Positions 32,666 to 49,000 of a stretch of 49,430 bases of DNA are shown here, piece by piece. The notes below the pieces were generated by a model. That model did no database searches, had not been told where the DNA came from, and was given only the letters and a program-made list of their open reading frames with translations. A program made the translations under genes and the position numbers. Source of the DNA: Gammaproteobacteria bacterium (GTDB lineage: Bacteria > Pseudomonadota > Gammaproteobacteria > Ga0077536); NCBI GenBank assembly GCA_019747795.1, contig JAIEQK010000274.1, positions 1-49,430 on the forward strand, given 5' to 3'. Every line of letters begins with the position of its first letter. Positions within the stretch are counted from its first letter, which is position 1.

Positions 32666-32951
32666 GGGGCGGGACTCCTGGCGGTGCATGCCAGGTTGTT
32701 CAGCAAGCGGGGTGCCAAGCCGCGCGCGTGGCGGGTTTCGCCGCGTGAACCCGCCCCCGCCCGTGGCCTCGATCACACTTTGCGCGCGCGCTCCGTGTTC
32801 TTGCGGGCAGCGCGCGCCGCTCGAATCGCTCGACCCGCGCACGCGCCGCGCGCGCCCGGACCGTGCATCCACCCGCGACCGTCGCCGCGCGACGACAGCG
32901 CCGCGGGTTATGCTCCCGCCGCGGCCCATCCGCCGCGAACAGGGGGAGATC

Positions 32952-33338: not shown

Positions 33339-34478
33339 ATGACGAACATCGAAGGACGCTGCGCCAAGAAGTTCGCGCGCATGAAGGACCTGCTCGCCAC
33401 GAGTCTCGCCGCGGGCGAGGATCTCGGCGCCTCGGTGGCGGTGAGCTGGAAGGGTGAGATGGTGGTGGACCTGTGGGGCGGCTGGGCCGACGAGGCGCGC
33501 ACGCGACCCTGGACCGAGCACACGCTGACCAACGTCTGGTCGACCACCAAGACGCTCACCACCTTCACCGCGCTGGTCATGCACGCGCGCGGACTCATCG
33601 ACGTGCACGCGCCGGTCGCGAAGTACTGGCCCGCGTTCGGCGCCAACGGCAAGGGCGACGTGCGCGTGCGGCACCTGCTCTCCCACACCTCCGGCGTGTC
33701 GGCCTGGGCCCAGCCGGTGGTCGTGGAGGATCTCTACGACTGGGACAAGTCGACCGCGATGCTGGCCGCGCAGCCGCCCTGGTGGGCGCCCGGCAGCGCG
33801 TCGGGCTACCACGCGCTGAACCAGGGGCACCTGGTCGGCGAGGTCATCCGCCAGGTCACCGGCAGGAAGCTCGGGCAGTACTTCGCCCAGGAGATCGCCG
33901 CGCCGCTCGGTGCCGATTTCCACATCGGGCTCGCGCCCGAACACGATCACCGCGTGTCACCCATCGTGCCGCCGCCGCCCCTGCCCATCGATCTCGCGGC
34001 GATGGACCCCGACTCGGTGCCCTACAAGACCTTCACCGGCCCCGCGCCCGACGCGACCGTCGCCTGGAGCGAGGCCTGGCGGCGCGCCGACATCGGCGCG
34101 GCCAACGGCCACGGCAACGCACGCGCGGTGACGACGGCGCTCTCGGCGCTCGCGAACGGTGGCGAGTTCCAGGGCGTGAAGCTGCTGGACCAGGAGACCA
34201 TCGACCTCGTGTTCCAGGAACAGGCCAACGGCATCGACCTCGCGCTCGGCATTCCGCTGCGCTGGGGCATCGGCTTCGCGCTCCGCGAGGACGTCACCAT
34301 GCCCTGCCTGCCGAGCGGTCGCGTGTGCTACTGGGGCGGCTGGGGTGGCTCGCTCGCGGTGATGGACGTCGACCGCAAGCTCTGCGTCAGCTACATGATG
34401 AACAAGATGGGGCCCGGCATCATCGGCGGGCCGCGCTCGGAAGCGCTGGTGCGGGCGGCCTTCGCGGCGATCGACTGA
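33339..34478 (+). CDS. Serine hydrolase, class C beta-lactamase/esterase fold
   Basis: A 379-residue protein of the penicillin-binding-like serine hydrolase family, probably an esterase of the EstB type. The nucleophile motif SxxK is Ser68-Thr-Thr-Lys71 (WSTTKTLT), the second motif is Tyr157-His-Ala in SGYHALNQGHLVGE, and RVRHLLSHTSGV is the usual helper block. The third motif region reads GGWGGS. There is no signal peptide, which argues against a periplasmic beta-lactamase. Substrate unknown. Preceded closely by the NTF2-like gene and followed by a bidirectional terminator. Confidence 0.9.
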   Translation: MTNIEGRCAKKFARMKDLLATSLAAGEDLGASVAVSWKGEMVVDLWGGWADEARTRPWTEHTLTNVWSTTKTLTTFTALVMHARGLIDVHAPVAKYWPAFGANGKGDVRVRHLLSHTSGVSAWAQPVVVEDLYDWDKSTAMLAAQPPWWAPGSASGYHALNQGHLVGEVIRQVTGRKLGQYFAQEIAAPLGADFHIGLAPEHDHRVSPIVPPPPLPIDLAAMDPDSVPYKTFTGPAPDATVAWSEAWRRADIGAANGHGNARAVTTALSALANGGEFQGVKLLDQETIDLVFQEQANGIDLALGIPLRWGIGFALREDVTMPCLPSGRVCYWGGWGGSLAVMDVDRKLCVSYMMNKMGPGIIGGPRSEALVRAAFAAID

Positions 34479-34510
34479 GCGCCACGACGCCCCCAGCCTC
34501 GAAAAGCAGA

Positions 34511-34530
34511 AACCCCGCCGAGGCGGGGTT
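34511..34530. terminator. Bidirectional terminator hairpin
   Basis: AACCCCGCC and GGCGGGGTT form an eight- to nine-pair stem with a minimal loop between two convergent genes. On the minus strand it is followed by TCTGCTTTTC and on the plus strand by CCTGTTC, so the minus-strand direction (PEP-CTERM gene) is the better terminator. Confidence 0.8.
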
Positions 34531-34557
34531 CCTGTTCAGGCGATGGCGTGAAGCCTT

Positions 34558-35574
34558 TCAGACCTGGGCGCGCGCCTTGCGCTTCATCTTGAGGCCACCG
34601 ACGAGGCCGAGCGCGACCAGCGCCATCGACATCGGCTCCGGCACGCGCGGGGGCGGCGGCGGCGGGTTGTCGTAGCAGCCGGAGAGCTGGGCGATCTTGA
34701 AGTAGTCGTTGGTCTCGGTGCTCGAGCCCGAGGTCAACTCCCTCACCGAGCTGCCGTACCTCGCGCCGTACTGCGCGATGGTGTCCACCACCGCACCGAT
34801 GGCCCAGTAGCTGGACGCGTAGTCGGTGACCGCCTTACGCAGGCTGTTGTTCGACGTCGCGGTGCCATTGGTCAGCGCTTCGATGTTCAGCGCGGTGCTG
34901 GTGGACGCGTAGGCGTCGTAGTCGAAGCTGCCGATCAGGGTCCAGCCGTCCTGCGCGACGGTCTGCGCCTGGGTCGCCATGCTCGCGATGCTGAAGCCAT
35001 CGCTGCCGGGCGGCGCGGCGTTCGGCGTGCTCGGCGTCCACACGAAGAGCGAGAAGTCGGAGTCCGAACCCAGCCAGCCCATCTTGATCTGGGACAGCGT
35101 CACCGCCTTGTCGAACTGGAAGACCACCAGGTCGTAGCCGCTCGCATTGTCGAATGCGTGGTTCGGCGAGGACTCCCTGCCGGCGCCGATGTTGGTCGGG
35201 TCGCCGTTGGTAATCGCCGCGCCGGTCGACGTGACGTTGTTGTAGTTCAGCGACAGGTTGTCCGGCTGGTAGATGGTCAGCGCGCGCTGCGTGTAGGTTT
35301 CCGCGGGGCCGCCGGTGATCAGGGGCGTGAGAGAATCCTGGTGATAGCCCGTCGCCGTGGACACCACGCCGCTCGGCCTGGACTGGGTGCTGAAGCTGTT
35401 GCCTGTGACGGTCGTGCTCGAAGCGAAGGTCCAGGTCTCGCCCGTGCAGGTCGGGTCGGTGCCGCCGCCGGTGCCGCTGCAGGTGTGGTACCTGAGGCCC
35501 GCGTGGGCGCCGCCGGCCAGGGCGAGGCCCAGCACGCCGGCAGCCAGCCGAAGAAGGTTCTTGGTGTTGTTCAT
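34558..35574 (-). CDS. PEP-CTERM sorting-signal protein
   Basis: A 338-residue exported protein. A signal peptide (1 to about 25, ending AHA) precedes a Ser/Thr/Asn/Gly-rich beta-strand body, and the C-terminus is a textbook PEP-CTERM tail: VPEP, a hydrophobic helix (MSMALVALGLVGGL) and the basic cluster KMKRKARAQV. Such tails are cut by an exosortase, after which the protein is attached to or released at the surface. A proline run (about six) stands just before the motif. ATG 35574 is used; TTG 35586 would add four residues. No exosortase gene is in the window. The body's function is unknown. Confidence 0.88.
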   Translation of the reverse strand: MNNTKNLLRLAAGVLGLALAGGAHAGLRYHTCSGTGGGTDPTCTGETWTFASSTTVTGNSFSTQSRPSGVVSTATGYHQDSLTPLITGGPAETYTQRALTIYQPDNLSLNYNNVTSTGAAITNGDPTNIGAGRESSPNHAFDNASGYDLVVFQFDKAVTLSQIKMGWLGSDSDFSLFVWTPSTPNAAPPGSDGFSIASMATQAQTVAQDGWTLIGSFDYDAYASTSTALNIEALTNGTATSNNSLRKAVTDYASSYWAIGAVVDTIAQYGARYGSSVRELTSGSSTETNDYFKIAQLSGCYDNPPPPPPRVPEPMSMALVALGLVGGLKMKRKARAQV

Positions 35575-35783
35575 ATCGTCATCCAATCCTGGTCGCGATG
35601 GTGTGGGCGAGCGCTGCCTTCCCGGCTCTGGGCGCCACGCATGTCGGACGCCTTGCTCTTGCGGGCGACCTTACCCCGTCTCAGGGACCGGAACAGCGGT
35701 AATAGCACGCATTTGCTCGACTGTGACGAAGTTTGACATTGTCGGGCCTGGCGCCGCTGGACAGCCGCGAAGGTTTGCACCCG

Positions 35784-38606
35784 TCAGCGCGCCGCGCCGG
35801 CCAGGCTGGCGCGCAGCGCCTCGGCCTCGGCACGGGCCGCGAACGGCTGCCGGTTGCCGAGCGCGCTGTCCAGTTCAGCCAGGGCCTCCTTGCGCCGGCC
35901 GAGCTTGTCCAGCACCCAGGCGAGATGGAAGCGGATCTCGGCGTCGCCCGAGCGGCGCGTGACCGCGTCGCGCAGGTAGCCCAGCGCCTCCTCGTGCTGC
36001 CCGCCGAGCCCCAGGATCCAGCCCAGGGTGTCGAGCACGGCGGCATCCTGGAGCGCCAGCCCGTGTGCCTCACGGGCCAGCGCGAGCGCCTCGTCCCGTG
36101 CGCCGCTCTGCAGGGTCGCGACCGCGTAGTTGTTCAGCAGCTCCGGCGCGCGGCCGACGGTCTCCACGAGCTTGGCGTAGGCCTGGCGCGCGCCGGCGTA
36201 GTCGCCCTCGAGCATGAAGTCCTCGGCGTGCGCGAGACGCGCCTCGGTGTCGTCGGGATGGGTGTCGAGCCAGTTCGCCAGTCGCTGTCGCGCCTCGGCT
36301 GCGCGACCCGCGTTGCGCAGCGCGCGGTAGCCGCCGAGCGTCGCGGCGCTGCTCGGCACCAGCCGGTTGGCGCTGTCGTAGTCGGCGAGCGCCGCGTCGC
36401 GCTGCCCGAGCTTCAGCCGCGCATGCCCGCGCATGACCAGCGCCGGGGCGAAGTCGGGCGTGTCGGCGAGCACCGCGTCGGCGCGCTGCATTGCCTCCTG
36501 CCAGGCGCCCTTGCGCAAGGACAGCTCGACCTGCGCGCGCCGCGCCGCCAGGTTCTTGGGCTCCGACTGCAGCGCCTTGAACAGCGCGTAGTCGGCGTCG
36601 GCGAAGGCGCCGATCTCGGCCTGTAGTGCCGCCGTGCGAATCTGCTGGCCTATGTCGTAGCCGGCGAGCTGGGACATGCGTTTCAGCGTGGTCCGAGCGT
36701 CGTCCAGGCGCTTCATGCGGATCTGCACCATGGCCAGGCGCTGCTGCACGTCGAAACTGTTCTCCGCGCCGGAGGAAGCGCGGAGCGCGAGATCGAGCGC
36801 CTGCTCGAGGTCTCCCTTGGCGAGTCGCAGGTCGAGCAGGTGGAAAACTGCGTCCAGGCCGGCATCCGGGGCCTTCGCCGCCTGCTCGGCGAGCTTCGTG
36901 CCGCTACGCTCGTCGCCCGCCGCGAGCTCGAGGCGCGACATCTCGAGCAGCACCTTCGCGTCATCCGTGTCGCCGCCCTGGAGCGCCTTGAAGCGCGCGC
37001 GCGCGGCGTCGAACTTGCCTTGCCGTACCTCCAGCTTGCCGAGATTGATCGCGGCCGGCCGGAACTCGGGCTCCCGCGCCAGCACGTTGCCGAAGGCGCG
37101 GCCCGCCAGGTCGAGCTTGCCGTCCTGGTAGAGCGCGACGCCGAGCAGGTTCTCGTACACCGCGTTGGTCGGCGCGGTCGCCAGCAGCTTGCGCGCTGTG
37201 TCGACCGCCGCGGCGGTGCGTCCGGTATTGAGCTGGGTGACCACCAGCGCCAGCGCGCCCTGTGCGTCGCCCGGGTCTGCCGACACGCTGGCCTCGAGTT
37301 CGGACAGGCCCTGTTCCACGCGCCCCGCGCCGATGTTCAGCATGGCGAGCTTGGTGCGCGCGTTGCCGCCCGCCCGCGCGTCGCCCTTCGTGCGTTCGAG
37401 CGCCTGGGTCGCCTTCTCGCCCTGGCCGGCGGCGGCATAGGCGGTGGCGAGCAGGGTCATGCCGCGCGCGTCCTGCGGCGCGAGGCTCGCTATCGGTTCC
37501 AGGACCGCCACCGCATCGCCGCCACCGACGTGCAGGATGGCGTCGCCCAGCGCCTTTCGCGCGCCGATGTCGCGCGGCATGCGCTTCACGTAGGGCGTCA
37601 GCGAGCCGATGGCCGCCTCGTAGTTGCGCAGGTCGTAGTGCGCCAGACCGCGGATCAGGAGCAGGGTCGGGTTCTCGAGCAGTAACTTCTCGTCGAGCGG
37701 CGTCAGGCGCTCCAGCACGCGATCGAGGTGCTTACGCACGGCCGCCTGGTCGCCCGTGCGGCCCGCCAGCACCGCCGCCAGGTAGGCGGCGCGCGGTTCG
37801 CCCGGGACGTCTTTCTCGATGCGCTCGAAGTCGGCCTTGGTCTCGGCGTCGCGCTTCAGGTCCATCAGGATGCCGATGCGTGCGATGCGCGCGTCGAGGT
37901 TGCGCGGATTGGCCTCGAGCGCGTGCCCGTAACCCTCGAGCGCGCGCGTGAAGTCGCCGCGCGCGTGGTAGATGGCGGCGTACAGCGCCCAGGCCGAGCT
38001 GCTGGTGGAGAAATCCTTGACCAGGGCATCTAGCTTGGCGAAGGCAGGCGCCTCGTCACCGTTGCGCATGAACCAGGCCGCTTCCACCACGCGCGGGTCG
38101 AGGCCCTGTGGGGTGAGCTTGAGCGCGCGATCGAGTTCCTCGCGCGCGCGGTTGTCATCGCCGAGGCCCATGTGCGCCTGGGCGCGACGCGCGAGCACGC
38201 TGGCCGCCGACTCGGGCGCCAGGCCATCGGCATTGAGTTCGCCGAGCAGGCGCGTCCACTTGCCCTGCTGCAGCAGCGCTTCGCCGAGCATGGGCAGCAG
38301 CAGGTTGCGATCCCCACCCGCCTCCAGCGCCTCGCGCAGCGACAGTTCAGCCGCGCGGCCCAGGGACTGTTCGAGGTAGATCTCCGCGGCCAGCACCAGC
38401 GAGGGCAGGTGTTTCGGATCCGCCTTGAGCGCGTTCTTCAGCTCGATGATGGCCGATACCGGCTCATCGGCCTGGTTCATCTGCACCGCCTTCTCGTAGG
38501 CCGCGTCGGGTGAGGGCGAGGACAGCGCATGGGCGGCGGGACTGAGCGTGGCGCACAGCAGGAGCGCCGCGAGCGCGCGGCGCGAATGGCGGACCTTCCT
38601 TTGCAT
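35784..38606 (-). CDS. prsT: PrsT-like TPR-repeat protein of the PEP-CTERM system
   Basis: A 940-residue exported protein built almost wholly of tetratricopeptide repeats. After a signal peptide (1 to about 27, AHA/LS) comes AYEKAVQMNQADEPVSAIIELKNALKADPKH, the start typical of the putative TPR lipoprotein PrsT found with exosortase loci (about 900 residues). The family is usually a lipoprotein; here the only Cys in the signal is Cys18 in LLLCATL, a poor lipobox, so lipidation is doubtful. ATG 38606 is selected; the frame stays open far upstream by chance. PrsT is thought to support exopolysaccharide export or assembly. The PEP-CTERM gene follows 209 bases downstream. Confidence 0.85.
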   Translation of the reverse strand: MQRKVRHSRRALAALLLCATLSPAAHALSSPSPDAAYEKAVQMNQADEPVSAIIELKNALKADPKHLPSLVLAAEIYLEQSLGRAAELSLREALEAGGDRNLLLPMLGEALLQQGKWTRLLGELNADGLAPESAASVLARRAQAHMGLGDDNRAREELDRALKLTPQGLDPRVVEAAWFMRNGDEAPAFAKLDALVKDFSTSSSAWALYAAIYHARGDFTRALEGYGHALEANPRNLDARIARIGILMDLKRDAETKADFERIEKDVPGEPRAAYLAAVLAGRTGDQAAVRKHLDRVLERLTPLDEKLLLENPTLLLIRGLAHYDLRNYEAAIGSLTPYVKRMPRDIGARKALGDAILHVGGGDAVAVLEPIASLAPQDARGMTLLATAYAAAGQGEKATQALERTKGDARAGGNARTKLAMLNIGAGRVEQGLSELEASVSADPGDAQGALALVVTQLNTGRTAAAVDTARKLLATAPTNAVYENLLGVALYQDGKLDLAGRAFGNVLAREPEFRPAAINLGKLEVRQGKFDAARARFKALQGGDTDDAKVLLEMSRLELAAGDERSGTKLAEQAAKAPDAGLDAVFHLLDLRLAKGDLEQALDLALRASSGAENSFDVQQRLAMVQIRMKRLDDARTTLKRMSQLAGYDIGQQIRTAALQAEIGAFADADYALFKALQSEPKNLAARRAQVELSLRKGAWQEAMQRADAVLADTPDFAPALVMRGHARLKLGQRDAALADYDSANRLVPSSAATLGGYRALRNAGRAAEARQRLANWLDTHPDDTEARLAHAEDFMLEGDYAGARQAYAKLVETVGRAPELLNNYAVATLQSGARDEALALAREAHGLALQDAAVLDTLGWILGLGGQHEEALGYLRDAVTRRSGDAEIRFHLAWVLDKLGRRKEALAELDSALGNRQPFAARAEAEALRASLAGAAR

Positions 38607-38749
38607 GACAGGTGTATCGGACGAGTGGACCAAGGCCTTAGCGGCGCTGGGACGGCAAAGATTGCACGCGCGGACGGGCGCGACTGTTAACAACTGCTGC
38701 GCCGTGGCGCGGCCCGCGAAACCACGGCCGGCTGCGGCGCACGGCCGCC

Positions 38750-40051
38750 TCAGGCCGCACGCAGCCGAAGCGGCAGCGTCGAATAGCCCATCACGTGGGT
38801 CTGGGCAAGGCGGGTCGGCTCGCCCGCCAGTTCGAGCCGTCCGAGCCACGGCAGCAGCGCGGCGAGGCTCGCCGCCAGTTCGACCCGCGCGAGATTGGTT
38901 CCCAGGCAGAAGTGCGCGCCGTAGCCGAAGGTCAGGTGCGGGTTGGGGCTGCGGCCGATGTCCAAGCGATAGGGCGCCGGGAAGACGCGCTCGTCGCGAT
39001 TGGCGGAAGGGTAGAACAGCCCCACCGTGTCGCCCTCGCGAATGCGCGTGCCGGCCAGATCGAAATCGCGGGTCGCGGTGCGCAGGAAGCTCGCCACGGG
39101 CGAGGTCCAGCGCAGGATTTCCTCCACCGCGAGCGGCAGCAGGCCCGGATCGGCGCACAGCCGCGCGCATTGCTCGGGGTGCTGGAGCAGGGCCTCGACG
39201 CCGCCCGAGAGCGCGTTCCGCGTGGTGTCGTTGCCGGCGCCGATCAGGAGCAGGATGTAGCCGTTCAACTGCTGGTTGGTGAGCAGCTTGCCGTCGACCG
39301 GCGTGTGCACCATGCGGTCGATGAGCCCGCCGCGGGTCGCGCCCACGGCCCGCGAGTCCTCGATCAGGTCCTCGATGTAGCTGCGCAGTTCGTACATGTA
39401 GCGATAGGCGGCGCGCCCGCGGCTCTCCCCGGGCAGGCGATCGGAGTCGTCCACCTCGCCGACCAGGGCGCGCGACCAGGTCAGGATCTGTCGCCAGTCG
39501 TCCGGCTCGAGGCCCATGATCTCGCCGACCGCCGCGAGCGGCAGCTTGCACGCCAGGCCGTGCACGAAATCGACACTGTCGCCGGACGCGCTCGCGGCCG
39601 TCAGCGCGGCCATGTACTCGGTGGTGAAGGTCTCGGCCAGGGCGCGGAAGTGCTCGCCCATGGCGCGCATCGCGCCCTGGGTATAGGCCCAGCTGCTGAG
39701 CCGCCGGTAGCGCCGGTGGCGTGGGTTGTCCATGAACACCATGTCCGGCGGCTCGTCCGGGTCCCAGCCGCGCGACGCGCCGAAGGTGTCGACCCCGGCG
39801 CGCATCGGCTCCGCGCGACCCTTGAGTTCCAGGCGCAGGCGCGGCCCGCCGTTGATGAACACCTCCGCGTGATCTGACACCGTGAGCACGTCCGCGTGGC
39901 GCGTCACCGCCCAGAAGGGTTCGATGTCCTCGCGTTCGTACCAGAACACCGGCGCCTGCTCGCGCAGCAGGTCCCATGCCGCCCACGGCGGTCCGCTGCT
40001 GGCGTAGTCCTGCGGGCGATGGATGGCGAGGCTGTCGAGGGAGAGGGGCAT
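38750..40051 (-). CDS. Cytochrome P450
   Basis: A 433-residue soluble bacterial P450 monooxygenase. The oxygen-binding I-helix motif is LLIGAGNDTTRNALS, the ExxR motif is EEILRWTSP, and the heme loop is FGYGAHFCLGTNLAR with the axial Cys near residue 380. The NDTTRNA and HFCLG patterns resemble the CYP124/125/142 group that hydroxylates sterol or branched-lipid chains, but substrate cannot be assigned. No ferredoxin or reductase gene is nearby, so redox partners must be elsewhere. ATG 40051 is preceded by GGAG-type purines only weakly. It is upstream of prsT on the same strand. Confidence 0.93.
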   Translation of the reverse strand: MPLSLDSLAIHRPQDYASSGPPWAAWDLLREQAPVFWYEREDIEPFWAVTRHADVLTVSDHAEVFINGGPRLRLELKGRAEPMRAGVDTFGASRGWDPDEPPDMVFMDNPRHRRYRRLSSWAYTQGAMRAMGEHFRALAETFTTEYMAALTAASASGDSVDFVHGLACKLPLAAVGEIMGLEPDDWRQILTWSRALVGEVDDSDRLPGESRGRAAYRYMYELRSYIEDLIEDSRAVGATRGGLIDRMVHTPVDGKLLTNQQLNGYILLLIGAGNDTTRNALSGGVEALLQHPEQCARLCADPGLLPLAVEEILRWTSPVASFLRTATRDFDLAGTRIREGDTVGLFYPSANRDERVFPAPYRLDIGRSPNPHLTFGYGAHFCLGTNLARVELAASLAALLPWLGRLELAGEPTRLAQTHVMGYSTLPLRLRAA

Positions 40052-40297
40052 GCGGTGCTCCAGCCGGGGAGAGACTGCGCTCGACCATAGGCACTGCGCT
40101 CCGACGAGGCAAGCGCATGCTTCAGTCGCACCACGCCGCGCCGCTAAGAGCGCAGCACTTGCTTCCCCGAGCCGACGAATAGCGCCATGATCGCCGCCAT
40201 GACCCGCCAGCCCGGCACTTTCGCCCACTCACCCGCACGCCACGTGGCCCACGGCCGCGCGTCGGCGGCGGCCTGAGTCGCGCCCGTTCCCGCGGCG

Positions 40298-41746
40298 ATG
40301 CTGGCCACGCTGCGCAAGCTCCTGGTGCTGTATTTCGTCGCGACCGGCGTCGCGGCGCATTTCGCCGTGCTGGCGGTGCTGGTTGCGCTCGCCACCATGG
40401 GCTTCGGCGATGTGCGCGGCATGGTCGCCGGCCGCATCGGCGAGCTCCGCAGCTTCGCGGAGGACCTGAAAGTAGACGTCGAGCGCGTGGGCGCCGACCC
40501 CGACTTCACCGCGCTGGTCGAGCCTCGCTCGCGCTTCGCCTTCCATGATTACGGCGGCCAGGTCGATCCGCAGCAGGGCTATGGCGTGGTGCGGCCGGTC
40601 GGCCCTGGCAAGCCCTACGCCAGCATCGACCTGGCGCTCCGCGCTGCCAATCCCGGCGACATCATCGAAATCGAGCCCGGCACCTACCTCGGCAATACGA
40701 CGGTGGTGATCAAGAACGACATCGTGATACGCGGCCGTGGCGGCGTGGCGGTGCTGGACGCCCAGCGCGGCTCGCTCGCAGAGAACAAGGCCATCATCGT
40801 CGCGCGCGCCCACAATGTCCTGATCGAGAATCTCGAGTTTGCCAACGCCGAGAGCCCGGACCGCAACGGCGCCGGCATCCGCGCCGAGGGCACGCGCCTG
40901 CACGTGCGCAACTGCTACTTCCACGACAACCAGGAAGGCATCCTGAGCACGGCCCACCTGAAGGCCGAGCTGGTGGTCGAGGATTCGGAGTTCGCGCGCA
41001 ACGGCTGGGTCGACGGCCAGGCCCACCAGATCTACGTCGGCCGCTTCGACCGCCTGGAGTTCCGCCGCAACTACGTCTACGGCACGGTCGCCGGCTCGGC
41101 GCTGAAGTCGCGCGCGGCCGTGAACATCATCGAATACAACTTCATCGCCGACGGCCCGCGGGGCAGCGGCAACTACTCGCTCGACCTCACCGACGGCGGG
41201 CAGGCCGTGATCGTCGGCAATGTCATCGAGAAGGCCAAGGATGCCAACAACAGCACCTTCGTGAGCTACGGCGCGGAAGCGATGAGCTGGCAGGACAACA
41301 GCCTGTACCTCGCGCACAACACGCTCGTGAACGACCGCTTCGACGGCATCTTCGTCAACAACCACAGCAAGGTGCTGCTGCACGCCTGGAACAATCTTAT
41401 GATCGGCCGCGCCGAGACGGCCACGGGCGGGCCGGTGGAATTCATCGGCAACCTGCTGATGGGCAACTCGCGCTTCGACACCAGCGCCGACGACGACCTG
41501 GACGGTGACGCGGACAGCGGCCACAACCGCGTGGTGGAAGCCATCACGGTGCGCGACCGCGGCAAGCTCGACTATCGGCCGCTAGCCGCATCACCGGCGG
41601 TCGATACCGCTGTCGCCATGCCGGCGACCCCGGCCACGGACCTGACGCCCACCTGGGAGTTTTCCGCGACCAGCGGCCCGGCGCCGCGCGTGATGGCCGG
41701 CGCGGCGCTCGACGTCGGCGCGCTCGAACTGCCCGCCGCGCCCTGA
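40298..41746 (+). CDS. Membrane-anchored right-handed parallel beta-helix protein
   Basis: A 482-residue protein. A hydrophobic N-terminal helix (about residues 8-36, VLYFVATGVAAHFAVLAVLVALATMGF) probably anchors it. From about residue 105 it has beta-helix rungs: ASIDLALRAANPGDIIEIEPGTYLG, IVIRGRGGVAVLDAQ, NVLIENLEFANAE, LHVRNCYFHDNQEGI, LEFRRNYVYG. This is the fold of pectate lyases, alginate epimerases and similar polysaccharide enzymes. Catalytic residues could not be placed, so lyase, epimerase or binding are all open. A glycosyltransferase follows 31 bases later, consistent with a role in surface polysaccharide processing. Confidence 0.82.
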   Translation: MLATLRKLLVLYFVATGVAAHFAVLAVLVALATMGFGDVRGMVAGRIGELRSFAEDLKVDVERVGADPDFTALVEPRSRFAFHDYGGQVDPQQGYGVVRPVGPGKPYASIDLALRAANPGDIIEIEPGTYLGNTTVVIKNDIVIRGRGGVAVLDAQRGSLAENKAIIVARAHNVLIENLEFANAESPDRNGAGIRAEGTRLHVRNCYFHDNQEGILSTAHLKAELVVEDSEFARNGWVDGQAHQIYVGRFDRLEFRRNYVYGTVAGSALKSRAAVNIIEYNFIADGPRGSGNYSLDLTDGGQAVIVGNVIEKAKDANNSTFVSYGAEAMSWQDNSLYLAHNTLVNDRFDGIFVNNHSKVLLHAWNNLMIGRAETATGGPVEFIGNLLMGNSRFDTSADDDLDGDADSGHNRVVEAITVRDRGKLDYRPLAASPAVDTAVAMPATPATDLTPTWEFSATSGPAPRVMAGAALDVGALELPAAP

Positions 41747-41777
41747 ACGCCGCGAATCTACCTGGCTTGCGTCGTTC

Positions 41778-42992
41778 ATGAAGGTCCTGCACGTCTTCGA
41801 TCATTCCGTGCCCATCCAGGACGGCTACGCCTACCGCTCGCTGAACATCCTGCGCGCGCAGGCGGCGCTCGGCTGGCAGACCCGCCAGCTCACCTCGATC
41901 AAGCAGGGCGCGCGCCCGGCGCTCTGCGAGACCTTCGAGGGCATGAGCTTCGAACGCACGCCGCTGCCCGACGCCGCCTGGACGCGGCTGCCGCTCGCCG
42001 ACCAGGCGGCGGTCGTGACTTCACTCGGGGCGCGCCTCGACGAACTCATCGAGCGCGAGCGGCCCGATGTGCTGCACGCGCACTCGCCGCCGCTGGTGGG
42101 CCTCGCCGCGGTGCGCGCCGGACGTCGTCACCGCCTGCCGGTGGTCTACGAGATCCGTGCCTTCTGGGAGGACGCCGCGGTCGACAAGGGCGCCTGCCGC
42201 GAAGGCGATCTGCGTTATCGGCTGACCCGCGCGCTCGAGACCTACGTGGTGACCCATGCCGATGCGGTCACCTGCATCTGCGAGGGCCTGCGCGGCGATC
42301 TGCTCGCGCGCGGTCTGCCGAAGGACAAGGTCACCGTCATCCCGAACGCGGTCGAGCCCGAACAGTTCTCCCTGAACGAAGCCTACGACGAGTCCCTCGC
42401 CGGCGGCCTTGGCCTCGTGCGCGGCGCGACGCTCGGCTTCGTCGGTTCGTTCTATGCCTACGAGGGCCTGCGCCTCTTGGTCTCGGCGCTGCCGGCGGTG
42501 ATCGCCGCGCGCCCGGATGCCCGCCTCCTGCTGGTCGGCGGCGGCAATGACGACGCGGCGCTGCGCGCCGACGTCGCCGCGCTCGGCCTGAGCGGGCACG
42601 TGGTGTTCACCGGCCGCGTGCCGCACGACGAGGTGGAGCGCTACTACGACCTGATCGACGTGCTGGTCTACCCGCGCCTCGCCATGCGCCTGACCGAACT
42701 GGTGACGCCGCTCAAGCCGCTCGAGGCGATGGTGCAGCGACGCCTGGTGGTGGCGTCCGACGTCGGCGGTCATCGCGAGCTGATCGAAGACGGTGAGACC
42801 GGGCTCCTGTTCAAGGCCGGCTCGGCCGAGGATCTCGCGCGCACGGTGTTGCGCCTCCTGGGCGACGAAGCCCTCGCCGCCCGTCTCAGGCAGAACGGCC
42901 GCGCCTTCGTGGAGAACGAACGCACCTGGACGCGCAGCGTCGCGCGCTACCCCGCCGTCTACGAGCGCGCGCTCGCGCGCGCGCGCCGCTAG
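41778..42992 (+). CDS. Exosortase-associated type glycosyltransferase (GT4-like)
   Basis: A 404-residue GT-B enzyme. It opens MKVLHVFDHSVPIQDGYAYRSLNILRAQ and has TSIKQGARPA and LPKDKVTVIPNAVEPEQF, the pattern of the PEP-CTERM/exosortase A-associated Daro_2409-type family, known from comparison of exosortase loci. The C-terminal donor half is typical GT4 (LLLVGGG, VVFTGRVPHDEVERYYDLIDVLVYP, KPLEAMVQ). It likely adds a sugar to an exopolysaccharide repeat unit at the inner face of the membrane. Its stop shares the palindrome CTAG with the opposing GT2 gene, so the two genes meet at 42989-42992. Confidence 0.88.
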   Translation: MKVLHVFDHSVPIQDGYAYRSLNILRAQAALGWQTRQLTSIKQGARPALCETFEGMSFERTPLPDAAWTRLPLADQAAVVTSLGARLDELIERERPDVLHAHSPPLVGLAAVRAGRRHRLPVVYEIRAFWEDAAVDKGACREGDLRYRLTRALETYVVTHADAVTCICEGLRGDLLARGLPKDKVTVIPNAVEPEQFSLNEAYDESLAGGLGLVRGATLGFVGSFYAYEGLRLLVSALPAVIAARPDARLLLVGGGNDDAALRADVAALGLSGHVVFTGRVPHDEVERYYDLIDVLVYPRLAMRLTELVTPLKPLEAMVQRRLVVASDVGGHRELIEDGETGLLFKAGSAEDLARTVLRLLGDEALAARLRQNGRAFVENERTWTRSVARYPAVYERALARARR

Positions 42993-43831
42993 GCGCTCGC
43001 CCCCCGACGCGGAAAGCGCCGCTTGAGCCCCGCGCGGCTGAAGCAGTAGCGGTGCTTGCGAAAGTAGTACAAGAGCCCTTGCGCGTGGCGCCAGGTGAAC
43101 TTGCCGAGCTTCGCGCCGCGTGACAGTTCCTGCGCGTCGTGGATTGCCACCGCGCGCGGTTCGAACACGATGCGATAGCCGGCCAGCCACACCCGCACGC
43201 AGTAGTCCACGTCCTCCGGCGAGTAGAAGATGTTCTCGTCGAGCGGCCCGACCGTCTCGATCACCGCGCGCGGCAGCAGCCAGCAGGCGGAGATCGCGTA
43301 GTCGACGTCGATCGGCGCGCTCGGCGCCTGCGCCGCCTGTTCCAGCGAACGCAGGCGCAGGAAACGCTGCAGCTTGCGCGTGACGGTCGGGAACTGGTCG
43401 GTGGAGAGCTGGTAGCGACCGTCCGGGTAGCGGAGCTGTGGGACCACCATGCCGATGTCCGATGCCGCGTCCAAGGTCGCGCGCAGCCGCGCGAGCGCAT
43501 CGAAGCCGATGGTCGCGTCGGAATCGAGCACCAGCACGTAGCGGCCGCGACACGCGGCGAGCGCGCGGTTGCGCGACACCGTGGTGCCGGTGTTGACCGC
43601 GCTGTAGTGCGGCTTCAGCACCTCGGGATGACGCTCCGTGAGCGCGCCGAGCAGCGCCGCGCTGCCGTCCCGTGAGCCGTTGTCAAAGACGTGGATCTCG
43701 CTCCGCCCGTCGAAGCCCGCGAAGCAGGTCACCAGCGACTCCACGCAGGACTCGAGGTACCTGGCCGAGTTGTAGGACAGGATGACCGCGGAAAACAGGA
43801 CGTCGTCGGACGACACGGGCGCTCCAGGCAA
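42989..43831 (-). CDS. Family 2 glycosyltransferase
   Basis: A 280-residue GT-A enzyme, similar in layout to rhamnosyltransferases of O-antigen and exopolysaccharide synthesis. SAVILSYNSARYLESCVESL begins the nucleotide-sugar domain, VLVLDSDATIG holds the DxD-type metal site, and SPEDVDYCVRVWLAGYRI carries the catalytic-acid ED motif. No membrane helix is evident. It converges with the exosortase-associated glycosyltransferase, overlapping by four bases. The donor and acceptor are unknown. Confidence 0.9.
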   Translation of the reverse strand: MPGAPVSSDDVLFSAVILSYNSARYLESCVESLVTCFAGFDGRSEIHVFDNGSRDGSAALLGALTERHPEVLKPHYSAVNTGTTVSRNRALAACRGRYVLVLDSDATIGFDALARLRATLDAASDIGMVVPQLRYPDGRYQLSTDQFPTVTRKLQRFLRLRSLEQAAQAPSAPIDVDYAISACWLLPRAVIETVGPLDENIFYSPEDVDYCVRVWLAGYRIVFEPRAVAIHDAQELSRGAKLGKFTWRHAQGLLYYFRKHRYCFSRAGLKRRFPRRGASA

Positions 43832-44172
43832 GAAGTTCGATCAGGGGTCGCGGTGGATGACCGCGCACTCGTTGCGGTTATCGACAGCCCGCGCTGAATC
43901 TGCACGCCGCGTGCCGCGCGGGTCAAGCGTGGCCCGGCGACGTTTCATCGCTGATTGTCACACTGCGCGCAGGGGATTGCCGTCGTAGTAATGCGCTCGA
44001 TGCGAGGCAAGCGCTTCGATTCCGGTGATCTGCACGCGGAATGCCTTTCCCCGGCCGCGCGTAAACATGCAGAATCGTCGCCAGGACTCGACGTAACGCC
44101 CGCGCGCCACGCGCGAGTGAGGCGTCGCACCGCGCGAAGGCTCGCGACCTTGTCTTGGGGGAGTGTGCCGAC
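43832..44172. other. About 340-base spacer before signalling operon
   Basis: No coding sequence is supported. The stretch separates the divergent GT2 and histidine kinase operon and should carry both promoters. No clear -10/-35 pair, repeat or operator was found. A purine run GGGGGA at 44157-44162 is the ribosome site for the short leader frame at 44173. Confidence 0.45.
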
Positions 44173-44235
44173 ATGCGGCGTTGCACCTGGTCCTGCCTTC
44201 CGTCCGCGCCCCGCGGCGCGCGCGCCTCGCGATGA
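44173..44235 (+). CDS. Possible 20-residue leader peptide upstream of histidine kinase
   Basis: ATG 44173 follows GGGGGA by ten bases, the best ribosome site in the region, and opens a 20-codon frame beginning MRRCTWSCLP. Its TGA stop overlaps the kinase start as ATGA (44232-44235). The kinase start itself has no recognisable ribosome site, so translation may be coupled through this frame. The peptide is Arg/Ala/Pro-rich and resembles nothing known. It may be chance in GC-rich DNA. Confidence 0.35.
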   Translation: MRRCTWSCLPSAPRGARASR

Positions 44236-45689
44236 CCCTCGCGCTCGAATCCACCCCGGCCGATCTGCCCGACGCGCGGGTCACGATCGATCACGAGGGC
44301 CGCGTGCTGGCCTGGGACGCTGGCGCCGAGGCGCAGTTCGGCTATGCCACCGCCGAGGCGCTGGGCTGCGACATCGATGCCCTGCTCGCGCCCTTGCGCG
44401 GCGCCGGCGACGACGAGCATCCGCCCCTGGCGCAGGCGCTGGTCGCGGACGAAGCGCTCGAGCGCACCTGTCGACGCAAGGACGGCGGTCTCATCCAGGT
44501 GGAACTGCGGCGCGAGCCGGGCGCGCCGTCCAGCCATGTAGTGCACAGTCGCGACGTCACCCGGCGCAAGACCGCGCAGGACGGCGCACGCGCGGCCAGC
44601 CGCTATCGCCCGCTGCTCGACGCCATGCCGGACGGCATCGTGATGGTCAACGCGCTCGGGCGCATCGTGCTCGCCAACGCGCAGGCCGAGCACCTGTTCG
44701 GCTACGGCGCGGACGAACTGGTCGGCCTGCCGGTCGAGGCGCTGCTGCCGTCGCGCTATCGCGAGGCGCACCTCGGCCACCGCGCGCAGTTCCACGTGCA
44801 GCCGCGCGTGCGGCGCATGGGCGTGGGCCTGGAACTCAATGGCCAGCGCAAGTCGGGCGAGGCGTTCCCGGTCGAGATCAGCCTGAGCCCGCTCGCGACC
44901 AGCGAAGGCATGCTCATTTCCGCCGCGGTGCGCGACATCAGCGACCGGCGGCGGATCGAACGCGCGCTGCGCGACAAGAACCTGGAACTCGCCGCGGCGA
45001 TCCTGGCGCGCGATCGCTTCCTCGCCAGCATGAGCCACGAACTGCGCACGCCGCTGAACGCGGTGATCGGCTTCACCGGCACGCTGCTCATGCGTCTGCC
45101 CGGACCGCTGACCGAGGATCAGACCCGGCAGCTCGAAGTGGTGCAGGGCAGCGCGCGGCACCTGCTCGCGCTGATCAACGACCTGCTCGATCTCGCGCGC
45201 ATCGAGGCCGACAAGGTCGAAGTGCACGTCGAGCCGGTGGAGCTCGCGAGCATGCTGAACGAGGTCGCGGCGCCGCTGCGCGTGGCGGCCGAGGACAAGG
45301 GCCTGGCCCTCACCACCGAACTCGAGTCGCCGCTGCGCACGCTCGCGACAGATCGCCGCATCCTGAAGCAGATCCTGCTGAACCTCGTCGGCAACGCGGT
45401 GAAGTTCACCGACGCGGGCGAGGTGCGGCTGCGCGCCGCGCGCCGCCCCGACGCGGCGCGCGTGATCTTCGAGGTGCGGGACACCGGCATTGGCATTCCC
45501 GCCGATCGCCTCCCCATGCTGTTCGAAGCCTTCTCGCGCATCGTCGAGCCCGGCGCGCCACCACGCGAAGGCACCGGCCTCGGCCTGCACGTCAGCCGCA
45601 AGCTCGCCGCCACCCTCGGCGGTGAGATCGCCTGCGCGAGCCGTCCGGGCGAGGGCAGCACCTTCACTCTCGAACTGCCGCTGCGCTGA
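44232..45689 (+). CDS. Soluble PAS-PAS histidine kinase
   Basis: A 485-residue kinase without membrane segments. Two PAS domains (about 15-112 and 124-240; RYRPLLDAMPDGIVMVNALGRIVLANAQA starts the second) precede the phosphoacceptor helix with His269 in ASMSHELRTPLNAVIGF. The ATP-binding domain has NLVGNAVKFT, DTGIGIPADRL, FEAFSRI and GTGLGLHVSRKLAATLGG. ATG 44232 is preferred; an in-frame GTG 44163 would add 23 residues but lies directly on its purine tract. It is followed three bases later by a response regulator. The signal is unknown; soluble PAS domains suggest cytoplasmic redox, light or small-molecule sensing. Confidence 0.92.
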   Translation: MTLALESTPADLPDARVTIDHEGRVLAWDAGAEAQFGYATAEALGCDIDALLAPLRGAGDDEHPPLAQALVADEALERTCRRKDGGLIQVELRREPGAPSSHVVHSRDVTRRKTAQDGARAASRYRPLLDAMPDGIVMVNALGRIVLANAQAEHLFGYGADELVGLPVEALLPSRYREAHLGHRAQFHVQPRVRRMGVGLELNGQRKSGEAFPVEISLSPLATSEGMLISAAVRDISDRRRIERALRDKNLELAAAILARDRFLASMSHELRTPLNAVIGFTGTLLMRLPGPLTEDQTRQLEVVQGSARHLLALINDLLDLARIEADKVEVHVEPVELASMLNEVAAPLRVAAEDKGLALTTELESPLRTLATDRRILKQILLNLVGNAVKFTDAGEVRLRAARRPDAARVIFEVRDTGIGIPADRLPMLFEAFSRIVEPGAPPREGTGLGLHVSRKLAATLGGEIACASRPGEGSTFTLELPLR

Positions 45690-45692
45690 GCC

Positions 45693-46079
45693 ATGACCCT
45701 GACCATCCTCATCATCGAAGACAACGCCGCCAACCTGGAGTTGATGCGCTACCTGCTGGCGGCCGCCGGCCACACCGTGCTGACAGCCGGCGACGGCCAG
45801 GCCGGGCTCGACCTCGCGCTCGAGGCCGTGCCCGACGTCATCCTGTGCGATCTGCAGATGCCGGTGATGGACGGCTACACGTTCGCGGCACGCTTCCGCG
45901 AGGTCGCGGCGCTGGCCGCCACGCCGCTCATCGCGGTCACCGCCTCGGCCATGCAGGGCGATCGGCAGCGCGTGCTGGCGGCGGGCTTCGACGGCTACCT
46001 GACCAAGCCGCTCGAGCCGGAGACCTTCGGCGCGGAGGTGCTCGCCTTCTACGTGCAGCAGCGCGCGCGTCCGCCATGA
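45693..46079 (+). CDS. Single-domain response regulator (CheY/DivK-like)
   Basis: A 128-residue receiver domain with no output domain. The acidic pair is Glu9-Asp10, the phospho-acceptor Asp53 lies in ILCDLQMPVMDGYTF, the switch residue is in AVTASAMQGDRQRV, and the conserved Lys is in LTKPLEPETF. This form typically relays phosphate or regulates by protein contact. It starts three bases after the kinase stop and overlaps the next gene as ATGA, so all three are one operon. Confidence 0.95.
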   Translation: MTLTILIIEDNAANLELMRYLLAAAGHTVLTAGDGQAGLDLALEAVPDVILCDLQMPVMDGYTFAARFREVAALAATPLIAVTASAMQGDRQRVLAAGFDGYLTKPLEPETFGAEVLAFYVQQRARPP

Positions 46080-49000
46080 CCACGCTCCTGATCGTCGACG
46101 ACCAGGCCAGCAATCGCGACTACCTCGTGACGCTGCTGCGCTACGCGGGCTACGACACGCTGGAGTCGGCCAATGGCCGCTCGGCGCTCGCGCTGGTGCG
46201 GGCACATCGCCCGGCGCTGGTGATCTGCGACATCGTCATGCCCTCCATGGACGGTTACGAATTCGTGCGCCAGCTGCGCGCCGACCCTGACATCGCCGCC
46301 ACCAAGGTGGTGTTCTACACCGCGCACTACCGCACCGAGGAGGCCGAAACCCTGGCCGCGGCAGCCGGCGTCGCGCGGGTGCTGATCAAGCCGGCCGAGC
46401 CGCCGGCCATCCTGGCCCTGGTGGCCGCCGAACTGGATGCGCCGGCGCCCCACGGCGCGGCGCTGCCGGACAGCTTTCCGGACGACCACCTGCGGCTCCT
46501 GTCGAGCAAGCTGGCCGGCGCCACCGACGAACTCACCGCGGCCAACAATCGCCTCGCGCGGCTGGTCGCGCTCAATCTCGATCTCGCGTCCGAGCACGTG
46601 CCCGAGACCCTGCTGGACAAGGTGTGCCACGGCGCGCGCAGCCTGCTCGAGGCGCGCCATGCCTTCCTGCGCGTGCAGGAGCGTGAGGACCAGGACGGCG
46701 TGCACGTGGCCGCGAGCGGACTGGACTCGCGCGACGTGGAGCGCCTGCGCGCCGCGCCGCGCCCGGGCGGCCTCCTCGAGCGGGTGCAGCGCGAGCGGCG
46801 CCTGGTACTGGGCAGGCGCGACGCCGAGGCCGGCGATCTCGGCCTGCCCTTCGGCCTGCCGCCCATGCGGCGCTACGTCGCGGCGCCCATCGTCTCCATC
46901 GCGCGCCACTATGGCTGGATCTGCGTGGCGGAGCGCGAGGACGGACAGGAGTTCGCGCGCGACGACTCCGAGGTCCTCGGCATCCTCGCCGCGCAGGTCG
47001 GACGCATCTACGAGAACGGCAGCCTGTACCGCAGCGTGAGCCGCCACGCCGCGCGCCTGGAACAGGAGGTCCTGCGCCGCACCCACGCCGAGCGGCGGCT
47101 GGCCGCGCAGTACGCGGTGTCGCGCGTGCTGGCCGAGACCCTGCCCGAGGCGGTGACCGCGCAGCTTCTCCTGAAGACGCTGTGCACCGAGATGCAGTTC
47201 GTGACCGGGGCGCTGTGGGAAGTGGATCGCGGCGTCGGCGCGCTCACCAAGTCCGCCGCCTGGCCGGACGATCGCGCCTGGTCGGCCATGCAGCACGCGC
47301 CTACTTCGAGCGTCGCGCTCGGCGTGTGGCGCGAAGGGACGGCGTGCTGGGTGAACGACGCGCAGGGGCTGGACGCCGCGAGCGGCATGGGGCGCGATGC
47401 GCCAGCCGGCACCGCGCTCGCCTTTCCCATCCATCTGCACGGCGAGGTGATCGGCATCATCGAACTGCGCAGCCAGGTCGCGCGCGCGGCCGAGCCCGAC
47501 CTCTTGGCCAACTGCCAGACCATCGGCACGCACATCGCGCAGTACCTCGAGCGGCGCGCCCAGCACCGCAGCATCGAGCGTTTGAATCGCATGCACCGGG
47601 TGCTGAGCGCGGTCAACTCGACCATCGTGCGCGTGCACGATCGCGCGCGGCTGTACGAGGAGTTCTGCCGCATCGCCGTGGCGCTCGGCGGCTTCGATCT
47701 CGCCTGGGTGGGCGAGGCGGGCGACGGCGAGGCGCCGCGCGCGCTGGCGGCCGCCGGCCCGGCGCTGGCTCGCCTCGAGTTCCCCGAGACCTGCGAGACC
47801 GATGCCGACGACGATGGCCCGGGCGTGGTCCGCCGCGCGCTCGACGAGCGTCGCATCGTGTACACCAACGACGTGTTGAAGGAATGCGCGCCGGGTTCGC
47901 CGCGCTATGCGCGCGCCTTGCGTCACGGCTATCGTGCGGTGATCGCGCTGCCGCTCCTGGTCGGCGACGCGCTGCATGGCTGCCTCGCGCTGTTCGCGCG
48001 CGAGTCCGATGTCTTCAACGCCGACGAACTCGGTCTCCTGGAGGAACTCGCGGGCGACATCGCCTTTGCGCTGCGCTTCATCGGCAACTCCGAGGAGTTG
48101 AGCTATCTCGCGAGTCACGATCCGCTGACCGGCCTCTTGAACCGCTCGGCCTTTCTCGCCCGGCTCGCGCCGCTGCTCGCGGCTGCTGCGGATCGCGGCG
48201 GGCACGTGGCGCTGGTGATCGGCGACCTGCGCCGCTTTCGCTACCTGAACGAGAGCCTCGGGCGGGCCGCGGGTGATGCACTGTTGAAGGAACTCGCGCG
48301 CCGGCTGCAGCACGGCTGGCCAGAGCCGCAGTACCTGGCGCGGGTCGGCGCGAACGCATTCGCCGGTGTGCTGCTCGACGTGGCCGACGGCGCCGCGGTC
48401 GCCGGCTGCGTGGACGGCCTCCTGCGCGCCCATCGCCACGATCCCGTCCGCCTCGAGGGCGCCGACATCGACGTCGGCTTCGCCATCGGCATCGCGCTGC
48501 ATCCCGAGGACGGCGACGAGGCCGAGACGCTGTTCCAGCATGCCGAGGCGGCGTTGAGCGTGAGCCGCGCGACTGGCGAGCGCTACAGTTTCTACCAGCC
48601 GGACATGACCTCGCGCATCGCGGCCTCCATGCGCCTCGAGTCACGTCTGCGCCAGGCGCTGGACGCCGAGCAGTTCGTGCTGCACTACCAGCCGAAGGTC
48701 GATGCCGCGAGCGGCGTGACCGTGGGCTTCGAGGCGCTGCTGCGCTGGCAGGACCCGGAGGTCGGGCTGGTGCCGCCCGGCGAGTTCATTCCGCTCCTGG
48801 AGGAGTCCGGCATGATCGTCGAGGTCGGGCTGTGGGTCATCCAACGCGCGCTCGAGGACGAGCGCCACCTGCGCGCGCTCGGCCTGCGTCCCGGGCGCAT
48901 CGCGGTCAATGTCTCCGCCCGCCAGCTGCAGCATCCGCAGTTCATCGACGCGGTGCGGCGCGCGCTGCGTTCGAGCGGCGGCGACGCGCCCGCGCTCGAC

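Follow-up and report, generated by a model that had tools for sequence, protein, structure and literature searches.

The closest described counterpart of the locus analyzed here is the XrtA/PEP-CTERM (EpsH) sorting system (Haft et al. 2006, PMC1569441). According to the passages of that paper on gene content, the system comprises XrtA, PrsK, PrsR, PrsT and exopolysaccharide (EPS) genes, the PEP-CTERM genes mostly form single-gene operons with large upstream regions, and PrsT bears a lipoprotein signal and occurs in tandem with PrsK/PrsR in 4 of 13 cases. For Aquincola tertiaricarbonis, the passages on floc formation in PMC9850573 report that prsT is needed for flocs, its disruption abolishing and complementation restoring them, that the PEP-CTERM protein PepA encoded upstream restores flocs to an rpoN1 mutant, that prsT itself is seemingly rpoN1-independent, and that prsT is often located near PEP-CTERM genes. 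The stretch analyzed here (the window) is an entire contig of 49,430 nucleotides, JAIEQK010000274.1 (C313), from the gammaproteobacterial draft genome GCA_019747795.1 (G000, the source genome; 5.94 Mb in 331 contigs, 99% complete, contamination 0.72%); G, C and L denote compared genomes, contigs and loci. Its positions 34558-43831 encode a PEP-CTERM protein, a PrsT and an XrtA-type glycosyltransferase, stp3. The source genome possesses the same components as the system of PMC1569441, in a similar arrangement; unlike the description there, as far as its passages on PrsT go, the window PrsT has no lipobox and adjoins a cargo gene, and stp3 lies off the XrtA locus. The region is best interpreted, with a probability of about 0.7, as belonging to an ordinary XrtA/PEP-CTERM system, from whose main locus it lies apart, and as being built of two independent units. 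The features are:

34558-35586, minus strand: XDP1-like PEP-CTERM surface protein (matches to NF041927, TIGR02595 and PF07589; probable start ATG at 35574)
35587-35783, minus strand: region between the PrsT and XDP1 genes; its PrsR-type site is degenerate (9 of 11 bases), and a convincing sigma-54 box is lacking
35784-38606, minus strand: PrsT, a TPR-repeat protein (TIGR02917, 470.6 bits, cut-off 312.2), with a signal-like N-terminus and no lipobox
38750-40228, minus strand: cytochrome P450 (PF00067, 74.9 bits, cut-off 22.8; open reading frame (ORF) bounds, start provisional)
40298-41746, plus strand: right-handed beta-helix protein (PF13229, 48.3 bits, cut-off 25.9)
41778-42992, plus strand: stp3, a GT4 glycosyltransferase of the PEP-CTERM/XrtA system (TIGR04063, 584.5 bits, cut-off 442.05)
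42989-43831, minus strand: GT2 glycosyltransferase (PF00535, 65.9 bits, cut-off 23.3)

All the genes named in the first-pass annotation, namely those for the PEP-CTERM protein, the PrsT-like protein, the beta-helix protein, the exosortase-type glycosyltransferase and the GT2, are present as full-length open frames and match the respective family profiles. The P450 gene between those for PrsT and the beta-helix protein, which that annotation does not mention, is probably unrelated to the PEP-CTERM system.

The PrsT-XDP1 cassette

PrsT-XDP1 is a conserved cassette, and its distance from the exosortase is the rule. The NF041927 match of the protein encoded at 34558-35586 spans profile positions 16-241 of 242, and TIGR02595 is matched with 18.9 bits, over the cut-off of 16. 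The protein is termed XDP1-like because its NF041927 score is under the cut-off; in this it differs from the over-cut-off members, with which it shares the PrsT neighbor. The C-terminal tail, VPEP followed by a hydrophobic stretch and KRK, has the standard PEP-CTERM appearance, with VPEP and not VPLPA. Alignment with the XDP1s of 7 relatives (24-51% identity to the window protein) reveals invariant residues common to all, the PEP-CTERM tail and an N-terminal signal, the latter recognized by eye. The alignment matches none of the solved structures at E<=1, and a single-sequence structure prediction (mean pLDDT 33.6) was not used.

Among 40 related genomes, XDP1 is over the cut-off in 7, each of which has PrsT immediately upstream in the same orientation. 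In the wider class, the 369 genomes sampled include 17 with XDP1 at E<=1e-20 and 15 with it over the cut-off, and PrsT adjoins XDP1 in each of the 14 new over-cut-off loci of this sample (largest gap 621 bases). The gene order in these loci is PrsT then XDP1 in 10, XDP1 then PrsT in two (L167 and L173, both from one family of organisms) and convergent in two (L172 and L175). In total, PrsT is the neighbor in 21 of 21 over-cut-off XDP1 loci examined and in the window; this count leaves aside two sub-cut-off loci (G344 and G259:C38) and five weaker matches (G002, G016, G017, G032 and G003:C84), of which only that of G002, located within a 1517-residue frame, was inspected. The PrsT and XrtA profiles for the locus scans were built in this analysis from 13 PrsTs and 10 XrtAs; among the relatives' XDP1-linked PrsTs, TIGR02917 itself was run only on that of G010 (597.8 bits), and this profile is also matched over the cut-off in 1 of 14 control genomes.

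The XrtA profile detects no exosortase in 16 class-sample loci or in the loci of the 7 relatives (stretches of 9-16 kb in both sets), nor in the window (49 kb), and because of this, the location of the cassette apart from an exosortase is considered normal. An exosortase-family match is found in 14 of the 15 XDP1 genomes searched with TIGR04178, a broad signature that also matches in 3 archaeal controls, and 6 other relatives with over-cut-off XDP1 contain a TIGR02602 exosortase match. The genome G008 was considered as an XDP1 genome lacking an exosortase and dropped: it has no TIGR02602 match but yields 42.9 bits with TIGR04178. At locus L177 (G143:C118), XDP1 is flanked by two PrsT genes, and the respective genome, 94% complete, contains no exosortase that could be found.

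TIGR02917 is matched over its cut-off by six PrsT-like genes of the source genome, including one that is seemingly split over two contig ends. The window PrsT is 33-52% identical to the relatives' XDP1-linked PrsTs and 25-30% identical to its paralogs in the same genome. In phylogenetic analysis, eight XDP1-linked PrsTs are separated from five own-genome paralogs by a single branch (support 96/98), and the grouping of the window PrsT with its own paralogs is rejected (p-AU 0.0002). In a 32-row tree made with a quick method, 20 of the 22 XDP1-linked PrsTs group together (SH-aLRT 86), with the PrsTs of L167 and L173, the same loci that show the reversed gene order, falling outside the main XDP1-linked group on long branches. 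Given this order and tree position, the PrsT-XDP1 pair may have been formed twice.

The first-pass annotation described the PrsT as unusual in lacking a convincing lipobox. No lipobox is indeed found at its N-terminus (MQRKVRHSRRALAALLLCATLSPAAHA-LSS), but the absence is not unusual. Of the 32 PrsT-like proteins compared, two of which (C267 and L168other) begin at the end of a stretch, just one (C331) has a strict lipobox and two more (C306 and L177) have a loose one; the 22 XDP1-linked PrsTs include none with a strict lipobox and one, that of L177, with a loose one. The TIGR02917 score does not require a lipobox. At least two other PrsTs of the source genome adjoin PEP-CTERM genes, on C59 (PF07589, 25.1 bits, over the cut-off) and C306 (16.9 bits, under it); the neighbor of the C247 PrsT resembles a PEP-CTERM gene by eye only, with no family match, the C267 PrsT is truncated at the contig start, and the C331 PrsT has no adjoining recognized PEP-CTERM gene. 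The window pair is comparable to pepA-prsT of Aquincola in that a PEP-CTERM gene lies beside a TIGR02917 prsT, but differs in the features given for that pair in the relevant passages of PMC9850573: there, the cargo gene is upstream of prsT and RpoN-dependent, whereas here PrsT is upstream of XDP1 and the RpoN element is not found. The C59 and C306 pairs share the Aquincola gene order as it is given there.

LbcA (PA4667) is an adaptor of the CtpA protease. A phmmer search shows that residues 715-911 of the window PrsT match this protein with an E-value of 5e-10; designed TPRs and O-GlcNAc transferase match as well, so that the likeness is a generic TPR similarity and lends no support to a protease partner here.

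The XrtA locus and the separate stp3, GT2 and beta-helix genes

The first-pass annotation noted that no exosortase is encoded in the window and placed one elsewhere in the genome, and both statements are borne out. A whole-genome TIGR02602 search and a local XrtA profile that also detects XrtD (E<=1e-8) find no exosortase in the window, and two genes are over the TIGR02602 cut-off genome-wide, at C305:26879-27583 and C331:64515-65219; the refuting condition named in that annotation, a genome devoid of any exosortase gene, therefore does not apply. The former encodes XrtA (TIGR03109, 319.6 bits against a cut-off of 208) and the latter XrtD, the VPLPA-type enzyme (575 against 400). C305 contains a full XrtA locus in the order EpsB_2 transferase, PrsK, PrsR, EPS-type genes, XrtA, XrtA amidotransferase and exosortase-A-associated ligase, in which all six system genes that were compared with their families score over the cut-offs (besides XrtA, PrsK 673/300, PrsR 693/503, EpsB_2 537/393, amidotransferase 1049/817 and ligase_PEP_1 734/592); the exosortase-A-type hydrolase 2 of C305 remains under its family cut-off (177.9 against 202.75). 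A search for further PEP-CTERM proteins, as the first-pass annotation suggested, locates tails over the PF07589 cut-off at 19 places in the source genome and in 0 of 14 control genomes. At E<=10, 38 places match, but so do 13 of the 14 controls, and the window XDP1-like gene is not in that list. In the XrtD-type EPS locus of C331 (~42345-69718; L006, L007, L106), several genes have a third-position GC of 0.61-0.68, compared to ~0.9 in most other called genes, which suggests a foreign origin of these genes.

In the source genome, stp3 lies away from XrtA, on a different contig (C313 and C305, respectively), which is unusual. Among the named stp3 loci (the best 80 of 573 confirmed), XrtA is present in 64, with a median distance of 3.0 kb over these 64, and in 56 of the 58 that have >8 kb on both sides. 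The 40 genomes include 10 with stp3, the source genome among them; an exosortase is encoded in 10 of these 10 and in 7 of the 30 others (Fisher p 2e-5, not corrected for kinship), and by coordinates the distance between the two genes is <5 kb in 6 of the 10 and ~12 kb in G002, the genes being on separate contigs in G000, G015 and G019. A contig break inside the XrtA locus was considered as the reason for the separation and ruled out: C305 extends for at least ~17 kb to either side of XrtA. Judging from the contig ends, stp3 and XrtA are at least ~23 kb apart.

This separation, together with the failure to find the promoter element of XDP1 (see below), would be compatible with the stp3 block being a remnant or decaying copy in an organism whose polymer no longer uses stp3, given that 56 of 58 named loci have stp3 with XrtA. 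However, stp3, GT2, the beta-helix protein and PrsT are all encoded by full-length frames, and the stp3 score, 584 bits, is inside the 524-624 range of the other ten matches, so that decay appears an unlikely explanation.

In a sister genus, stp3, the GT2 and the beta-helix gene are found in or beside the XrtA supercluster. Specifically, G010 carries XrtA and all three on one contig within ~22 kb, with stp3 beside the amidotransferase, a GT2 that is 64% identical to that of the window ~4 kb off, and the beta-helix gene further along. The beta-helix homologs in G010, G015 and G039 have a homolog of the second hydrolase-type gene of C305 within ~3 kb, and in G010 and G015 the same stretch also encodes homologs of the C305 ligase and decarboxylase-type genes (65-72% identical). 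The C305 locus of the source genome, with otherwise the same neighbors, yields neither a GT2 nor a beta-helix match at E<=1e-5 and, for stp3, only 31% partial matches. Because these genes are near XrtA-locus genes in relatives and absent from C305, they are considered XrtA-supercluster genes found apart.

It could be supposed that C313 is foreign to this genome, i.e., that a binning error joined two halves from different organisms, and the draft state of the assembly, in 331 contigs, leaves some room for this. The contamination estimate is only 0.72%, though; C305 lacks stp3 while C313 carries the only match to it in the genome (at E<=1e-80), and the window PrsT groups with cassettes from the same family of organisms, all of which makes such an error highly improbable. 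The first-pass annotation viewed the region as a satellite locus. This applies to stp3 and its neighbors, which are away from their usual place, but not to the region as one satellite: PrsT-XDP1 is a separate cassette, with no exosortase found nearby in any over-cut-off XDP1 locus examined.

Elements upstream of XDP1

The upstream regions of XDP1 in several relatives contain GTCAA-N5-TTTACA located 89-92 bases before a sigma-54 box, an element similar to the pair of motifs, with their spacer, that is described in the motif passages of PMC1569441. A composite score of >=12 is reached in 8 of 24 XDP1 regions and in 2 of 231 other upstream regions, the 2 being those of genes with PEP-CTERM-like tails; the remaining 16 XDP1 regions, that of the window among them, are below 12. 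These motifs are hand-made: the first was drawn by eye from the XDP1 upstream regions of G015, G008, G009, G003 and G010, and these five therefore do not count as independent, unlike L165, L168, L177 and the two background genes; the sigma-54 weights and -24/-12 consensus were likewise set by hand. PEP-CTERM gene starts were assigned with a simple rule of thumb, so that a few genes (e.g., L025 and L028) are probably in the wrong frame or have the wrong start, with no count depending on them. The C247 gene and the G002 background gene (L089) were recognized as PEP-CTERM genes by eye.

No composite site is found in the whole window at a threshold of 10 or in 34401-44200 at a threshold of 6; upstream of the window XDP1, the first motif is matched in 9 of its 11 bases at -163, and a good sigma-54 box is lacking. 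Exact matches to GTCAA-N5-TTTACA occur four times in the source genome (C204, C298 and twice in C306), on contigs that also bear a PEP-CTERM match or a PEP-CTERM-like gene, not always directly downstream, and none is in the window. With one mismatch allowed, the first motif yields 13 matches genome-wide compared to 15 in the reversed control and is not enriched by itself, and the sigma-54 consensus yields 110 compared to 152 and is uninformative.

These results bear on the suggestion, raised with the first-pass annotation, that the genes of the region share PrsR/PrsK regulation, i.e., that they form one co-regulated satellite under PrsK/PrsR and sigma-54 that switches the polymer and its attached protein together. 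PrsK and PrsR are encoded in the genome, and the composite element is present in several relatives and upstream of the PEP-CTERM-like gene of C306. Nevertheless, the strands are mixed (XDP1, PrsT, P450 and GT2 on minus, the beta-helix gene and stp3 on plus), and neither the composite site nor, in the genome-wide search, the first motif has a match in the window, so that a single regulated unit is improbable and common PrsK/PrsR control of the window XDP1 is not supported by the sequence. Given the missing element, the window XDP1 may be regulated otherwise or be decaying.

Several sites elsewhere deserve mention. In the L103 locus (G000:C306:30835-32163), a PEP-CTERM-like gene is preceded by a sigma-54 box and two exact GTCAA-N5-TTTACA sites, and the gene after it encodes a PrsT whose lipobox is loose; this locus would serve well as a model for the PrsR regulon of the source genome. 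At C305:747-762, a near-consensus sigma-54 site (one mismatch) precedes by ~110 bases the EpsB_2-type transferase gene that adjoins prsK-prsR. In the window, an exact sigma-54-like site, TGGCAC-N5-TTGCT, at 32702-32717 (minus strand) lies ~36 bases before a possible 59-codon ORF (32665-32486, minus strand) with a signal-like start, which may be due to chance. Beside the locus, at 44163-49384 (plus strand), are genes for a PAS histidine kinase, identified by family matches, and then, recognized by eye, for a response regulator followed by a long GGDEF/EAL-like protein.

Proposed functions and implications

Under the two-unit explanation, the first unit, PrsT then XDP1, would be a cargo cassette. 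XDP1 would be exported by its signal peptide, retained in the inner membrane by the PEP-CTERM tail, and then cleaved and handed over by XrtA, whose gene is on C305; the assignment to XrtA rather than XrtD is suggested by the VPEP tail. The adjoining PrsT, a putative TPR scaffold without a lipid anchor, would be a dedicated partner that helps XDP1 reach or stay in the exopolysaccharide. The second unit would consist of the beta-helix, stp3 and GT2 genes, members of the XrtA supercluster that lie outside it in this lineage and would contribute to the same polymer all the same. Cleavage by XrtA, the partner role of PrsT, the individual sugar steps and the direction in which the genes moved are what we infer from gene content and context.

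Several observations weigh against this explanation. The window XDP1 is under the cut-offs of both NF041927 (109.7 against 125) and PF07589 for PEP-CTERM (18.7 against 20.7), and it lacks the PrsR/sigma-54 element found in several relatives. PrsT is absent next to the two sub-cut-off XDP1 matches (L178 and L179), and G143 has XDP1 and PrsT, yet TIGR04178 finds no exosortase in it. The PrsT-XDP1 adjacency could be kept by common history, without physical contact. For the second unit, a single relative, G010, was found to have the GT2 in its XrtA locus (1 of the 80 best stp3 loci of 573, in the same genome), which slightly lowers the confidence in the two-unit explanation, and the beta-helix gene is present in only 4 of the 40 genomes, including the source genome. 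In an assembly of 331 contigs, the true distance between C313 and C305 is constrained only through the minimum of ~23 kb between stp3 and XrtA. Finally, an empty site in the same genus was not demonstrated by tracing the flanking beta-lactamase-like gene in six relatives: three match at E<=1e-60, G002 has no match, and G001 (same genus, 71%), the sole one inspected, has other neighbors.

A broader hypothesis, somewhat less probable than its negation and put forward tentatively, is that PrsT, rather than being a single lipoprotein that serves the whole system, is a family of substrate-specific partners, each subfamily with one kind of PEP-CTERM cargo, such that the lipobox-less XDP1-type PrsT would be an escort dedicated to XDP1, periplasmic or secreted, which carries this protein or anchors it in the exopolysaccharide. 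The XrtA system and the location of PrsT near PEP-CTERM genes are already published, as the cited passages of PMC1569441 and PMC9850573 attest. In the open-licence PubMed Central literature, XDP1 together with exosortase, or the phrase "exosortase-dependent surface protein", was not found, and the finding that one PrsT subfamily pairs almost exclusively with one cargo family appears to be new, if small. The interest of the displaced stp3 block is purely local. The pairing of PrsT with cargo could account for the six PrsTs of the source genome, and XDP1 and its PrsT subfamily, neighbors in every over-cut-off locus examined, represent a clean pair for probing the role of PrsT and the hand-over of exosortase cargo.

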